NCBI RefSeq assembly: GCF_013407765.1
Contig: NZ_JACBZD010000002.1
Coordinates: 1,126,001-1,190,000 of the forward strand
Direction: 5' to 3'
Length of the DNA stretch: 64,000 nucleotides
From: Allostreptomyces psammosilenae
Lineage (GTDB): Bacteria; Actinomycetota; Actinomycetes; Streptomycetales; Streptomycetaceae
The notes under the pieces were generated by a model that saw only the letters and a list, made by a program, of their open reading frames with translations, did no database searches and was not told where the DNA came from. A program made the translations under genes and the position numbers. How positions within the stretch are numbered: the first letter of the stretch is position 1; every line of letters begins with the position of its first letter. Shown in pieces: positions 1-3,905 of the stretch.

Positions 1-180
1 GGCCACGTTGGATTCCGCGCCCCCCGCGGTGCGGTGGAAGGTGTCGGCCCGCTCCAGTGGGCCCCGGCTCGCCGGGGTCAGCACCGCCATGGACTCGCCG
101 AGACACACCGCGGGCGGAGTGGGCGTGTGTCTCCCGGCCCCCGTGGGCGGCAGGGGCGAACCTGTGGGCACCTGTGTCAT
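1..180 (-). CDS. PfkB-family sugar kinase, probably 2-keto-3-deoxygluconate kinase (5' end only)
   Basis: Only the first 60 codons are inside the window; the gene runs off the left edge. Translation from the ATG at 180 gives an N-terminus with VCLGESMAVLTP at about residues 27-38 and GGAESNVA at residues 53-60. The second motif is the substrate-binding glycine-rich signature near the N-terminus of ribokinase/PfkB kinases, and the first is the usual opening beta-strand of KDG kinases. A GGAG Shine-Dalgarno lies about 8 bases upstream of the ATG. The gene is divergent from the deaminase-deacylase-KDPG aldolase operon and shares its 112-bp control region. That context favours 2-keto-3-deoxygluconate phosphorylation, which would feed the aldolase encoded at 3285-3905. 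The family call is firm; the substrate is inferred from neighbours. Confidence 0.8.
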   Translation of the reverse strand, partial: MTQVPTGSPLPPTGAGRHTPTPPAVCLGESMAVLTPASRGPLERADTFHRTAGGAESNVA

Positions 181-292
181 GCGGGCTGCTCCGACTCGTC
201 TTCGGGGGCATTGACCCTCACTGGACCGCGATGCTAGAACGGCTTCAACAGTATGCGCAACGATGGTTGCAAAATACGCAACGAAATGAGGC
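181..292. promoter_or_regulatory. Divergent control region of the sugar-acid catabolic cluster
   Basis: This 112-bp interval separates the sugar kinase start from the deaminase operon. On the plus strand TTGACC (211-216) and TAGAAC (235-240) are separated by 18 bp and resemble a vegetative actinobacterial promoter. The repeat cluster at 252-284 lies immediately downstream of that -10 box, where a bound repressor would block initiation. No regulator gene is visible nearby, but one could lie beyond the left edge. Confidence 0.5.
252..284. promoter_or_regulatory. Candidate operator with three GCAAC/GTTGC half-sites
   Basis: Half-sites are GCAAC at 257-261, its inverse GTTGC at 266-270, and GCAAC at 278-282. 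The last two form the 17-bp palindrome GTTGCAAAATACGCAAC (266-282). The longer direct repeat GCAACGA recurs at 257 and 278, exactly 21 bp apart, which is two helical turns. The stretch is AT-rich compared with its surroundings and sits just after a plausible -10 box. This looks like a binding site for a dimeric repressor; the protein is unknown. Confidence 0.45.
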
Positions 293-1618
293 GTGGGAGT
301 GCCCCAAAGCCAGGCCGGCGACACCGGAATCGACGACACCGCCGTCGACGCCCTGCGTGAGGAACGGCTGGACTGGCGCCACAAGGCCGTGCCGGCGAGC
401 GCGTGGGGGAGTACCGTCGCGGAGTTCACCGCCCGGCGCCCGCCCCTGAGCGAACTCGGCACCCCCCTGCTCACGCTCGACGCCGGCGCGCTGGCGCACA
501 ACACCGCCGTCATGGCCTCGTGGTGCGCCGCCGCCGGGGTGCTGCTGGCCCCCCACGGCAAGACCACCATGGCGCCGGCACTGTGGCGCCGACAACTCGC
601 CGCGGGCGCCTTCGGCCTCACCCTCGCCAACCTCCCCCAACTGCGCGTGGCGCGCGCCTTCGGCGTCCGACGCCTCCAACTCGCCAACACGCTGCTCGAC
701 CCCGCCGGGCTCGCGTGGCTCGCCCAGGAACTGGACCGGGACCCGGAATTCTCCTTCCTGTCCTGGGTCGACTCCCCCCGTTCCGTGGCACTGATGGACG
801 CCGCGCTGCGCGCCGCCGGAGCCCGCCGCCCGGTGGAGGTCCTCGTCGAACTGGGGGCCGCCGGTGGCCGCACCGGCTGCCGCACGGAACACGAGGCCCT
901 CGCCGTCGCCGAGGCCGTCCGTGCCACCCCCACCCTCGCCCTGGCAGGCGTCGGCGGCTACGAGGGCGCCCTGGCCCACGACGCGTCCGCGGAGCGGCGC
1001 GCCGCGGTGCAGACGTACCTGCGCCGCCTCCGCGGACTGCACGGCCGACTCCGTGAGCGTTACGAGACGACGCACCCCGTCGTCACCGCCGGCGGCAGCG
1101 CCTTCTTCGACCAGGTGGTCGAGGTGCTGGCGCCACTGGCCACCGACGGCACGCGCGTCGTGCTGCGCTCCGGCGCCTACCAGATCCACGACGACGGCTT
1201 CTACCGAGGCATCTCGCCCTTCGCCCGGGGCGCCGGCGACCACTCCCTGCGGTCCGCCATGCACGGCTGGGCCCAGGTCGTCTCCCGCCCGGAACCAGGG
1301 CTGGCGCTGCTCAACGCGGGCAAGCGGGACCTCCCGTTCGACGAGGGACTGCCGGAGCCCCAGGCCGTACGCGGCGCGCGGCGCGGCGGCGAGGAAACCC
1401 CCGACGACCCGCTCACCGGGGCGCGGGTGACCGCGCTCAACGACCAGCACGCCTTCCTGAGACTGCCGAACGCCGACGGGCCCGCCATCGGCGACATCGT
1501 CCGGCTGGGCCTGTCCCACCCGTGCACGGCCTTCGACAAGTGGAGCCTCATCCCCGTCGTCGACGACGCCCAGGCCCTCGCCCCCGTCGTGGTCGACATG
1601 GTGAGGACCTTCTTCTGA
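293..1618 (+). CDS. PLP-dependent amino acid deaminase (D-serine/D-threonine dehydratase-like; possible D-glucosaminate deaminase)
   Basis: A 441-residue fold-type III PLP enzyme with an alanine racemase-like N-terminal barrel and a D-serine dehydratase-like C-terminal domain. The PLP lysine is seen in PHGKTTM (about residue 90), and the C-terminal metal-binding signature is SHPCTAFDKW (H407, C409). These enzymes eliminate ammonia from D-hydroxy amino acids to give 2-keto acids. Context (deacylase, KDPG aldolase, KDG kinase) suggests the substrate may be D-glucosaminate, giving 2-keto-3-deoxygluconate; that is inference. The start is ambiguous. GTG at 293 opens the longest frame, but GTG at 299 is better spaced from the GAGG at 288-291. 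The stop overlaps the next start by one base (TGATG), so the operon is translationally coupled. Confidence 0.85.
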   Translation: MGVPQSQAGDTGIDDTAVDALREERLDWRHKAVPASAWGSTVAEFTARRPPLSELGTPLLTLDAGALAHNTAVMASWCAAAGVLLAPHGKTTMAPALWRRQLAAGAFGLTLANLPQLRVARAFGVRRLQLANTLLDPAGLAWLAQELDRDPEFSFLSWVDSPRSVALMDAALRAAGARRPVEVLVELGAAGGRTGCRTEHEALAVAEAVRATPTLALAGVGGYEGALAHDASAERRAAVQTYLRRLRGLHGRLRERYETTHPVVTAGGSAFFDQVVEVLAPLATDGTRVVLRSGAYQIHDDGFYRGISPFARGAGDHSLRSAMHGWAQVVSRPEPGLALLNAGKRDLPFDEGLPEPQAVRGARRGGEETPDDPLTGARVTALNDQHAFLRLPNADGPAIGDIVRLGLSHPCTAFDKWSLIPVVDDAQALAPVVVDMVRTFF

Positions 1619-3288
1619 TGGCCCTCGCCCCCCGCCCCGGCCCCACTCCGGTCGGCGCCAGAACCGCCGACCTCGTCTTCCGGTCCGCCACCGTCGTCGA
1701 CGGCACCGGAGCGGCGCGCTACACCGCCGACGTCGCAGTCCGTGACGGGCGGGTCAGCGCGATCCACACCGATCCACTGGCGGACCGCCCCACCGCCCGC
1801 CGGACCATCGACGCCACCGGGCTCGTCCTGGCGCCCGGATTCATCGACATGCACGCCCACTCCGACCTGCGGCTCCTACTGGAGCCGGACCACTTCGCCA
1901 AGGTCGCGCAGGGCGTGACCTGCGAGGTCCTCGGCCAGGACGGACTGTCCTACGCCCCGGTCGACGACACCACCCTGGGACAGATCCGCCAGCAGATCGC
2001 CGGGTGGAACGGCGACCCGGAGCACCTCGACTGGGACTGGCGCGGCGTGGGCGAGTACCTCGACCGGCTGGACCGCGGCATCGCGGTCAACGCCTGCTAC
2101 CTCGTACCGCAGGGTTCCGTACGGATGCTCGCCATGGGATGGGACGCCCGCCCCGCGAGCCCCGAGGAACTCGACCACCAGCGCCGGCTCGTGGCCCAGG
2201 GCATGGCGGAGGGGGCCGTCGGCATGTCCAGCGGGCTGACGTACACCCCCGGAATGTACGCGGACACCGACGAGCTGACCGCGCTGTGCCGCACCGTCGC
2301 CGCCTGGGGCGGCTACTACTCGCCCCACCACCGCTCCTACGGGGCCGGCGCACTGGAGGCGTACGCCGAGATGGTCCGGGTCTCCCAGGCGTCCGGCTGC
2401 CCGCTGCACCTGTCCCACGCCACCATGAACTTCGGCGTCAACGCCGGCCGGGCCGGCGAGCTCCTGGCCCTCCTCGACGCGGCCATCGCCGCCGGCTGCG
2501 ACATCACCCTGGACAGCTACCCCTACCTCGCGGGCTCCACCACGCTGGCCGCCCTGCTGCCGAGCTGGGCCACGGAGGGCGGCCCCACCCGCACCCTGGA
2601 ACGGCTGCGAGACGAGCCCACCTGGCGCCGCATCCGCGAGGTCCTGGAGCGGGACGGCTCCGACGGCTGCCACGGCGTGCCCGTCGAATGGGAGACGATC
2701 CGCCTCTCCGGCACCCGCTCCCCTCGACTGGCCCACCGTGTCGGCCACGATCTCGCGGGACTGGCCCGCCTCGAGGGCCGCCCCGCCGCCGAGATCTACC
2801 GCGAACAACTCCTCGACGACGACCTGGGCACCACCATCCTGCAACTCGTCGGCCACGAGGAGAACGTCCGCGCCATCATGCGGCACCCGGCCCACACCGG
2901 CGGCAGCGACGGCCTGCTCGTCGGCGCCAAGCCGCACCCCCGTGCCTGGGGAACCTTCCCCCGCTACCTCGGCCACTACGTCCGGGACCAGGGAGTGCTC
3001 GGCCTGGAGGAGTGCGTCGCCCACCTCACCGGGCGCCCCGCCAGGCGCCTCAGGCTCAAGGACCGGGGGCTGATCCGCGTGGGACATCGGGCCGACCTGG
3101 TGCTCTTCGACCCCGAGACGGTGGCCGACACCGCCACCTACGACCAGCCCCGACGCCAACCGATCGGCATCCCGTACGTCTGCCTGGGTGGCACCGCGGT
3201 CATCGCCGACGGCGCGCACACCGGGGCGCTGCCCGGCCGCGCGCTGCGCCGCACCGCCCGAGGCACCGAGGAGGTCCCCACCCCATGA
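1618..3288 (+). CDS. N-acyl-D-amino-acid deacylase (amidohydrolase)
   Basis: A 556-residue amidohydrolase-superfamily zinc hydrolase. The HxH metal motif is in FIDMHAHSD (H79, H81), and a cysteine metal-bridge candidate lies in TCEVLGQDG, as in D-aminoacylases. The family C-terminal signature SDGLLVGAKPHPRAWGTFPR is present. It removes the N-acyl group from N-acyl-D-amino acids. In this cluster an N-acetylated amino-sugar acid such as N-acetyl-D-glucosaminate is an attractive substrate, because the products would pass to the deaminase encoded just upstream. ATG at 1618 overlaps the previous stop, and the gene end overlaps the aldolase start (ATGA). Deacylase function is confident; the exact substrate is not. 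Confidence 0.87.
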   Translation: MALAPRPGPTPVGARTADLVFRSATVVDGTGAARYTADVAVRDGRVSAIHTDPLADRPTARRTIDATGLVLAPGFIDMHAHSDLRLLLEPDHFAKVAQGVTCEVLGQDGLSYAPVDDTTLGQIRQQIAGWNGDPEHLDWDWRGVGEYLDRLDRGIAVNACYLVPQGSVRMLAMGWDARPASPEELDHQRRLVAQGMAEGAVGMSSGLTYTPGMYADTDELTALCRTVAAWGGYYSPHHRSYGAGALEAYAEMVRVSQASGCPLHLSHATMNFGVNAGRAGELLALLDAAIAAGCDITLDSYPYLAGSTTLAALLPSWATEGGPTRTLERLRDEPTWRRIREVLERDGSDGCHGVPVEWETIRLSGTRSPRLAHRVGHDLAGLARLEGRPAAEIYREQLLDDDLGTTILQLVGHEENVRAIMRHPAHTGGSDGLLVGAKPHPRAWGTFPRYLGHYVRDQGVLGLEECVAHLTGRPARRLRLKDRGLIRVGHRADLVLFDPETVADTATYDQPRRQPIGIPYVCLGGTAVIADGAHTGALPGRALRRTARGTEEVPTP

Positions 3289-3905
3289 ACGCCGCGCTTC
3301 AAGCCATGGCCGCCGACCGGGTACTCACGGTGGTCCGGGCGCCGGTCATACCCGACGCCGCACGGTTGTGCGAGGCGCTCGCCGCCGGCGGCATCCGGTG
3401 CGTCGAGCTGACCTACACCACCCCCGACCTCGTCACCCATCTGCGACGGGCCGCCTCGACGGCGGGCTGCTTCGTCGGAGCGGGCACCGTGCTGACCGGC
3501 GAGCAGGCCGCCGCGGCCGTCGATGCCGGGGCCCGCTTCCTCGTCACCCCCGGCATCCGGCCGGAAGTGGCGGAAGTGGCGGCCGAGCACCATGTGCCGC
3601 TCGTCATGGGCGCGTTCACACCCAGCGAGGTGATCGCCGCCCGGGAACTCGGTGCCGCCGCAGTGAAGATCTTCCCGGCGCACCTGCTCGGGCCGCGCTA
3701 CCTCAAGGACCTGAGGGGCCCCCTGCCCGGCGTGCCGCTCGTGCCCTCGGGGGGAGTCAACGCGGGCAACGCGGCCGACTTCCTGGCGCACGGCGCCCTC
3801 GCCGTCTCCGCCGGCACCGACGTGGTCCCCCCGGACGCGGTCGCCGACGGCGACTGGGCCGAGATCACCCGGCGGGCCCGGCAGTTCACCGAGGCCCTCC
3901 GCTGA
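3285..3905 (+). CDS. eda: 2-dehydro-3-deoxy-phosphogluconate (KDPG) aldolase
   Basis: A 206-residue class I aldolase, the normal family length. The Schiff-base lysine is in AAVKIFPA (K128) and the catalytic glutamate in CVELTYTTP (E41). The phosphate-binding segment GAGTVL and the SGGVN strand are also present. It cleaves 2-keto-3-deoxy-6-phosphogluconate to pyruvate and glyceraldehyde 3-phosphate, and family members can also act on 4-hydroxy-2-oxoglutarate. ATG at 3285 overlaps the deacylase stop, so it is the third gene of a coupled operon. Together with the divergent PfkB kinase it provides the lower half of an Entner-Doudoroff-type sugar-acid route. Confidence 0.9.
   Translation: MNAALQAMAADRVLTVVRAPVIPDAARLCEALAAGGIRCVELTYTTPDLVTHLRRAASTAGCFVGAGTVLTGEQAAAAVDAGARFLVTPGIRPEVAEVAAEHHVPLVMGAFTPSEVIAARELGAAAVKIFPAHLLGPRYLKDLRGPLPGVPLVPSGGVNAGNAADFLAHGALAVSAGTDVVPPDAVADGDWAEITRRARQFTEALR

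Follow-up and report, generated by a model that had tools for sequence, protein, structure and literature searches.

What does the divergent set of sugar-acid enzymes at the left edge of this stretch do, and which substrate would it act on? The window, by which we mean the whole stretch analysed (64,000 nucleotides of Allostreptomyces psammosilenae, G000:C2:1126001-1190000), begins inside a kinase gene that is read away from genes for a deaminase, a deacylase and an aldolase. The first-pass annotation had proposed that these four enzymes form a route for N-acetyl-D-glucosaminate (GlcNAc1A). Reading frames and domain matches confirmed the presence and positions of all four, which are listed here with their neighbours; window positions equal L006 positions minus 13000.

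1 to 180, minus strand: 5' part of a PfkB kinase gene, KDG kinase-like; the gene continues to window position -923 (full gene L006 12077-13180, 367 aa)
211 to 240, plus strand: promoter-like TTGACC (211-216) and TAGAAC (235-240), spacer 18, directed at the deaminase
257 to 282, no strand: putative operator GCAACGATGGTTGCAAAATACGCAAC, consensus GCAAY-N4-RTTGC-N7-GCAAY, copies of an 11-nt repeat 21 nt apart
293 (or 299) to 1618, plus strand: PLP deaminase of fold type III, proposed to act on D-glucosaminate (PF14031 D-ser_dehydrat, E 1.6e-20)
1618 to 3288, plus strand: D-aminoacylase-fold deacylase, proposed N-acetyl-D-glucosaminate deacetylase (PF07969, E 7.1e-44)
3285 to 3905, plus strand: KDPG/KHG aldolase, Eda family (PF01081, E 4.4e-44; TIGR01182, 190.9 bits)
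L006 11298-12080, outside the window, same strand as the kinase: IclR regulator
L006 10743-11159, outside the window, same strand as the kinase: RidA (PF01042, E 1.5e-28)

The deaminase and deacylase genes overlap at 1618, and the deacylase and aldolase genes at 3285. The sequence left of position 1 had been named as the place to look for the rest of the kinase, a regulator and a transporter; it holds the first two and also RidA, but none of the flanking frames that were read encodes a transporter adjoining the cluster. Left of RidA follow a 111-aa frame that we take to be DUF2469 and then presumably signal-peptidase-like frames, and the right-hand flank appears to be a yraN-like frame.

A proposed route for N-acetyl-D-glucosaminate

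We consider it very likely that the cluster serves to catabolise GlcNAc1A. The deacylase would remove the acetyl group to give D-glucosaminate, from which the PLP deaminase would eliminate ammonia to yield 2-keto-3-deoxygluconate; RidA would remove the reactive enamine/imine at this step. The PfkB kinase would then form KDPG, and the aldolase would split it into pyruvate and glyceraldehyde-3-phosphate. Our observations concern gene content, conservation, shared operators, fusions and family membership; the substrate, each reaction, the repression and the inducer are what we infer. The route is supported by the presence of RidA, a KDG-kinase-like kinase, a deaminase with an SHPC motif and an Eda aldolase in one divergent unit, and GntP neighbours, GH20 fusions and an operator shared with KDPG aldolase genes in other genomes point to an acylated form of D-glucosaminate. 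This support for the earlier proposal is comparative and in silico.

Conservation and gene neighbourhood

The arrangement is not a matter of chance, since the same divergent set was found again in other genomes, across actinobacterial orders. Of the 43 genomes sampled from genus g10, which is presumably Streptomyces, 42 carry the deacylase. Among the loci of at least 10 kb with a deacylase match, the 65 with an Asp-type enzyme include 13 with a GntP symporter of the gluconate family and 6 with a GH20 hexosaminidase, the majority having neither, and the 7 loci of the Cys type include none of either. GH20 and GntP played no part in choosing these loci, which were fetched by matches to the deaminase (L044-L083, L185, L186) or the deacylase (L154-L173, L181-L184), so that the linkage of those two enzymes is biased in this count. 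A fairer count comes from the 20 loci for which the deacylase was the only query, where RidA was found in 18, the deaminase in 12, the kinase in 10, GntP in 6 and GH20 in 1.

The deacylase is fused in frame to GH20 in two species (L169 and L181), and GH20 lies nearby in others. The fusion is nested in a 24-member deacylase clade that holds the window deacylase (support 100). The same gene set is adjoined by a solute-binding protein and GH20 in L076, L078 and L185; both also lie beside the gene set in L186, a locus with no deacylase match.

A shared operator

TTGACC and TAGAAC read as promoter-like -35 and -10 elements, and a block resembling them was found upstream of many related clusters. 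The operator is probably the site of the IclR protein, which would repress the divergent promoters there until released by a pathway intermediate. The exact operator stands upstream of 28 of 43 deaminases. Across 30 genomes it also occurs 17 times away from the cluster, closely preceding a KDPG aldolase gene in 11 cases, giving 11 genomes with an unlinked aldolase gene under the same operator; the remaining six sites (L234, L236, L240, L241, L247, L248) lack an aldolase. The reversed pattern, taken as a control, gave 0 occurrences in 30 genomes. Two further exact sites were set aside: a second operator in G035 (L152) is a decayed copy that precedes only a 77-residue deacylase remnant, and an off-cluster site in G044 (L153), which lies inside a reading frame, looks like chance.

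In the window genome the pattern occurs once, with up to one mismatch allowed. We therefore reject a wider regulon in this genome, and the single operator implies no regulatory link there to LPMO, GH20 or GntP genes.

The deacylase and deaminase

The AlphaFold2 model of the window deacylase (pLDDT 82.7) has the D-aminoacylase fold, and Foldseek matched it to 9g5m (E 3.5e-42). Nine D-aminoacylase and OngB chains were tied at Z 47.6-49.2, among them AfDam (1m7j; 34.5% identity) and BbDam (3gip) at Z 48 alongside PpOngB, and the structure search thus cannot choose among them. His68, His70, His222, His252, Tyr285, Asp368 and Arg379 are common to the window enzyme and the D-aminoacylases. Both metal-site histidines are retained, but the Cys97 metal ligand of OngB is replaced by Asp97, the carboxylate-binding Lys254 by Thr254, Ser290 by Gly290, Ser292 by Thr292 and Glu226 by Tyr; the insertion region is longer, and the equivalent of Gln298 falls within it, where the alignment is uncertain. 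The changes at Cys97, Lys254 and Glu226 and the longer insertion also set the enzyme apart from AfDam and BbDam. The window deacylase accordingly has neither the residue set of OngB-type deacetylases (Cys97, Lys254, Ser290, Ser292, Gln298) nor the Cys/His/His site with a Lys for the alpha-carboxylate that marks subtype V amidohydrolase D-aminoacylases. A tree of 53 of the 105 aligned sequences placed it in a 39-member clade (support 100) with OngB outside. Judged by residues and tree, it is not an OngB orthologue.

The deaminase scores 74 bits against PF14031 (cut-off 22), as a D-serine dehydratase-like fold-type III enzyme, and the SHPC motif, an HxC motif that we take to bind metal, is found in 61 of 66 loci. 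A tree of 50 sequences, built after 16 named loci had been placed on a drop list, grouped OngC apart, with two deaminases from f23 genomes weakly (0.67) beside it. By this placement the window deaminase is not an OngC orthologue.

The main point against the GlcNAc1A reading is the reported N-acyl-D-amino-acid activity of the probable Streptomyces coelicolor orthologue of the deacylase. PEPCK lies 1.9-18.2 kb from the deacylase in 10 of 11 genomes, and as SCO4979 is presumably PEPCK, this proximity suggests that the deacylase corresponds to Sco4986. Cummings et al. (2009) reportedly found that protein to be an N-acyl-D-amino acid deacylase, with N-acyl derivatives of hydrophobic D-amino acids as substrates. 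The cluster could then serve ordinary N-acyl-D-amino acid catabolism, which we regard as unlikely: the deacylase would free D-amino acids, the deaminase would turn D-serine or D-threonine into keto acids with RidA as a guard, and the kinase and aldolase would serve otherwise. Homologues in Tsukamurella are annotated as D-aminoacylase and alanine racemase, related deaminases on Klebsiella and Pantoea plasmids adjoin IclR, RidA and amino acid ABC transporters with deacylase, kinase and aldolase absent, and OngC also deaminates D-Ser and D-Thr (PMC9537276). However, such a role leaves unexplained the kinase, the aldolase within the cluster or under its operator, GntP and the GH20 fusion. Moreover, deaminases of this family would not be expected to act on D-Phe or D-Trp.

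The kinase and aldolase

The kinase had been assigned to the GlcNAc1A route as a KDG kinase, and its closest solved structure is indeed the KDG kinase 1v19 (E 5e-36) and not a ribokinase, although it falls below every NCBIfam cut-off, the curated KDG kinase models included (NF040938 is the best of 19 models, with 138.8 of 400 bits). The motif D.N.R..LW is present in 41 of 42 loci and a YYR.GSA-like motif in 35 of 42, both of which we take to mark the KDG site. The TIGR01182 score of the aldolase exceeds the cut-off of 156.05, as for a KDPG aldolase (Eda), and the Schiff-base Lys motif K[IVL]FPA is found in 22 of 23 aldolase loci. In the Streptomyces-type aldolase that bears the operator the motifs are EVTLRT, KFFPA and PTGG, presumably a signature of KDPG rather than KDPGal aldolases; the window aldolase has PSGG.

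It is unlikely that the same route serves another N-acetyl-hexosaminate, for example N-acetyl-D-galactosaminate via KDPGal. In favour of such a reading, N-acetylgalactosaminides are also cleaved by GH20 enzymes, an alpha-N-acetylglucosaminidase lies next to a deacylase relative (48% identity) in L173, and an ong-like locus of Klebsiella is annotated with KDGal kinase and KDPGal aldolase; but the motifs of the operator-bearing aldolase are presumably of the KDPG type, and a DgaE-family lyase in a related cluster, L163, points to the gluco form.

Relationship to known pathways

The GlcNAc1A route of marine bacteria to which the first-pass annotation referred is real; the window deacylase and deaminase have OngB and OngC as relatives rather than as orthologues. 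The ong clusters of Pseudoalteromonas prydzensis (PMC9537276) and P. shioyasakiensis (L040) likewise combine a D-aminoacylase-fold deacylase, a fold-type III PLP deaminase, a PfkB kinase and RidA (OngD), an essential member there, and GH20 is linked to the ong cluster as it is to some actinobacterial relatives. Identities to the L040 proteins are 34.5% for the deaminase (OngC), 28.6% for the deacylase, 25% for the kinase and 29% for RidA. The window set has an IclR instead of an RpiR regulator, its relatives carry GntP instead of an SSS carrier, its aldolase lies within the cluster, and the metal ligand and pocket residues of the deacylase differ. A search of L006 at 60 bits gave no match to OngR (MurR/RpiR) or to the Klebsiella SSS carrier, which stood for OngIT. 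Since the deacylase, deaminase, regulator and transporter come from other branches or families, the route looks as if it works like the ong pathway yet was independently assembled.

We think it likely that Actinobacteria, including nearly all Streptomyces, own such an independently assembled GlcNAc1A pathway, with a separate subfamily of Asp-metal-site carbohydrate deacetylases, fused to GH20 in one genus, and with a common IclR-type operator on the cluster and on an unlinked KDPG aldolase gene. If so, a near-universal Streptomyces cluster whose current annotation is D-amino acid metabolism would make up the lower half of the oxidative route of chitin utilisation, and the D-aminoacylase fold would have given rise to carbohydrate deacetylases two or more times.

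Another pathway (PMC9529869) also leads from a form of D-glucosaminate to KDPG, but uses a phosphorylated sugar acid; one related cluster, L163, contains a DgaE-family gene. A search of the window genome with the L163 enzyme gave no match at E 1e-20, and this genome has the fold-type III deaminase instead.

Substrate source and uptake

The likeliest source of GlcNAc1A would be chitin cleaved by secreted AA10 oxygenases. Streptomycetes rank among the foremost degraders of chitin in soil and have several LPMO genes, with 8 LPMO_10 genes in the window genome; in the open-access literature we found no paper describing streptomycete use of oxidised chitin ends. We rejected LPMO co-occurrence as proof of a chitin source because genome size and taxonomy are confounding. 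Outside the window's family, LPMO genes occur in 22 of the 38 genomes that match the deacylase strongly, in 26 of the 68 with weaker matches only (p 0.067 for strong against weak-only) and in 38 of the 243 with none; at genus level, 8 of 19 (counting LPMO in a strong member) compare with 12 of 24. With a cut at 54% identity, chosen after seeing the data, 22 of 28 genomes, or 8 of 12 genera, compare with 0 of 10.

Uptake in the window genome would have to proceed via an unlinked carrier, perhaps GntP. The one GntP gene found there has a gluconate-kinase-like frame beside it and an LPMO gene at a distance of about 7 kb; it probably belongs to the gluconate operon.

Organization of the gene cluster

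The cluster quite probably serves the catabolism of N-acetyl-D-glucosaminate (GlcNAc1A) as a variant of the known ong-type pathway, a predicted function that the first-pass annotation had proposed and that emerged strengthened from our comparisons. The window spans 1126001-1190000 of its contig, and the genes of the cluster are as follows.

Genes of the cluster (window positions unless stated)
293 (or 299)-1618, plus strand: deaminase
1618-3288, plus strand: deacylase
3285-3905, plus strand: KDPG aldolase
From 180 leftwards, minus strand: PfkB kinase, the whole gene being at 12077-13180 of L006 (the window locus extended leftwards)
Past the kinase, outside the window, kinase's strand: IclR regulator, then RidA

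The ends of the deaminase and deacylase genes overlap, as do those of the deacylase and aldolase genes. The first-pass annotation suggested looking to the left of position 1 for the remainder of the kinase, a regulator and a transporter; the kinase is complete there and is followed by the IclR and RidA genes, and no transporter was seen adjoining the block in A. psammosilenae. The block is flanked by a frame that we read as DUF2469 on one side and, presumably, a yraN-like frame on the other.

Conservation of the cluster

Deacylase matches at an E-value of 1e-40 were found in 149 of 393 genomes of the class, and deaminase matches at 1e-60 in 50 of 61 genomes, A. psammosilenae included. In the genus g10, presumably Streptomyces, 42 of 43 genomes contain the deacylase, with every match at or below 1.6e-211. 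The divergent order RidA-IclR-kinase/deaminase-deacylase(-aldolase) is repeated in many of the 45 loci examined, and also in Tsukamurella (annotated record) and Arthrobacter (unannotated record), in both of which a gluconate:H+ symporter-family gene comes after the aldolase. In 20 loci retrieved solely through their deacylase, the neighbouring genes encoded RidA (18), deaminase (12), kinase (10), IclR (7), GntP (6), aldolase (5) and GH20 (1). Loci L163-L167 of family f17 combine the deacylase with RidA and often the kinase, and the fold-III deaminase is absent from the locus; such deaminases are encoded elsewhere in 11 of 11 f17 genomes asked, G152 included.

A putative operator shared with unlinked aldolase genes

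The kinase-deaminase intergenic region contains TTGACC-N18-TAGAAC, followed by GCAAY-N4-RTTGC-N7-GCAAY, a putative operator that the IclR protein may bind. Of 43 loci, 28 have the exact operator 5' of the deaminase, those of Tsukamurella and Arthrobacter among them, and it lies at a cluster in 17 of the 18 genomes of the closest group. It sits at the kinase-aldolase part of the cluster in G024 (L075), and the cluster operator of G026 has one mismatch, a level at which the reversed control gives matches too in these 18 genomes. Across 30 further genomes there were 43 exact sites, spread over 26 of them, and the reversed control gave no exact site. By coordinates, 26 of the sites are at clusters and 17 elsewhere. 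All 17 were inspected. Eleven precede a KDPG aldolase gene whose aligned start is 24-134 bases away (L237, L243-L245 and seven further loci), and they come from 11 of the 21 genomes of the window's family that were searched; downstream of the other six there was no KDPG aldolase gene. In the three such aldolase genomes whose cluster was also fetched (G005, G008 and G023), the cluster has no aldolase. Thus, the aldolase gene that the cluster lacks is accompanied by the cluster's operator. In G035, an exact operator precedes a 77-residue deacylase remnant (L152, around 7473), which is a decayed second copy of the cluster.

Relation to the ong pathway

The marine route to which the first-pass annotation referred does exist. 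As described in excerpts of PMC9537276, OngB of Pseudoalteromonas prydzensis deacetylates GlcNAc1A, OngC deaminates the product to KDG and KdgK phosphorylates it; OngD, a RidA protein, is also required for growth on GlcNAc1A, the repressor is OngR (RpiR type), the importer is an SSS carrier, and the route is known from Gammaproteobacteria and one betaproteobacterium. Neither this paper nor that on the OngB structure (PMC12017989) uses the terms "Actino" or "Streptomyces" in its main text, and in a 2025 study of chitin in S. venezuelae (PMC12370203) the words oxidized, aminoacylase, LPMO, aldolase, deaminase and IclR do not occur. An Aeromonas chitin study sought the route and, in the part consulted, could not confirm its presence there (PMC11653859). 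Among the matches listed, we found no account of a GlcNAc1A route in actinomycetes in the open-access literature.

The AlphaFold2 model of the deacylase (pLDDT 82.7) has the D-aminoacylase fold, and in structure comparison D-aminoacylases and PpOngB tie. The deacylase retains His68, His70, Tyr194, His222, His252, Tyr285, Asp368 and Arg379 (PpOngB numbering), but Cys97 is replaced by Asp, Lys254 by Thr, Glu226 by Tyr, Ser290 by Gly and Ser292 by Thr (residue roles from excerpts of PMC12017989). The combination Asp97/Thr254/Tyr226/Thr292 is common to 70 of 105 aligned sequences, the window's included, whereas Cys97 occurs in nine, including OngB, the D-aminoacylase AfDam and the second deacylase copy of each of two g10 genomes (L187, L192). 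The deacylase thus forms a branch of its own, the deaminase too groups apart from OngC, and we therefore infer that the cluster was assembled independently of ong.

Evidence for the substrate

Among loci of at least 10 kb, those with an Asp-type deacylase (Asp at position 97) contained GntP in 13 of 65 and GH20 in 6 of 65, and those with the classical Cys-type deacylase in 0 of 7 for each. In two species of one genus, the deacylase and a GH20 hexosaminidase share a single stop-free frame (L169 8688-11921 in G401; L181 7587-10742, minus strand, in G139), and these deacylases nest inside the window's 24-member clade in the tree (support 100). GH20 occurs together with RidA, kinase, deaminase, IclR and deacylase in L078 and L185, with the same set without RidA in L076, and with the set minus a deacylase match in L186; all four have a solute-binding protein. 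In G380 (L173 8815-14609), genes for RidA, for an alpha-N-acetylglucosaminidase (NAGLU, E 1.6e-120) and for a solute-binding protein come after that of a deacylase relative (48%), and in a haloarchaeal locus GH20 is 4.5 kb distant. DgaE-family PLP lyases, both scoring under the NCBIfam cut-offs, are located beside a deacylase relative in an actinobacterium (L163 10473-11600) and near a haloarchaeal one (L199 10400-11638); the L163 type was found in G152 only among 14 genomes asked. A. psammosilenae has 8 LPMO_10 genes, and LPMO co-occurrence with the deacylase across genomes does not discriminate.

A real risk to the GlcNAc1A reading is that the deacylase acts on N-acyl-D-amino acids. It is located 1.9-18.2 kb from the PEPCK gene in 10 of 11 genomes (on different contigs in G226), and if PEPCK is SCO4979, as we take it to be, the orthologue of the deacylase would be Sco4986. 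GTP-dependent PEPCK was present in 11 of 11 g10 genomes asked, with no match in the whole genome of A. psammosilenae (PF00821, E 0.001). Sco4986 was reportedly found by Cummings and colleagues in 2009 to be active on N-acyl hydrophobic D-amino acids. However, this could be a side activity, since sugar acids are not known to have been among the compounds assayed.

Plasmids of Klebsiella variicola (L042) and Pantoea (L043) carry a related deaminase together with IclR, RidA and an amino acid ABC transporter, but have neither deacylase nor kinase beside them; these genes perhaps serve the use of D-serine or D-threonine. Two other replicons labelled as plasmids, CP125156.1 (5.4 Mb) and NZ_LT559118.1 (11.9 Mb), are probably chromosomes mislabelled in the collection.
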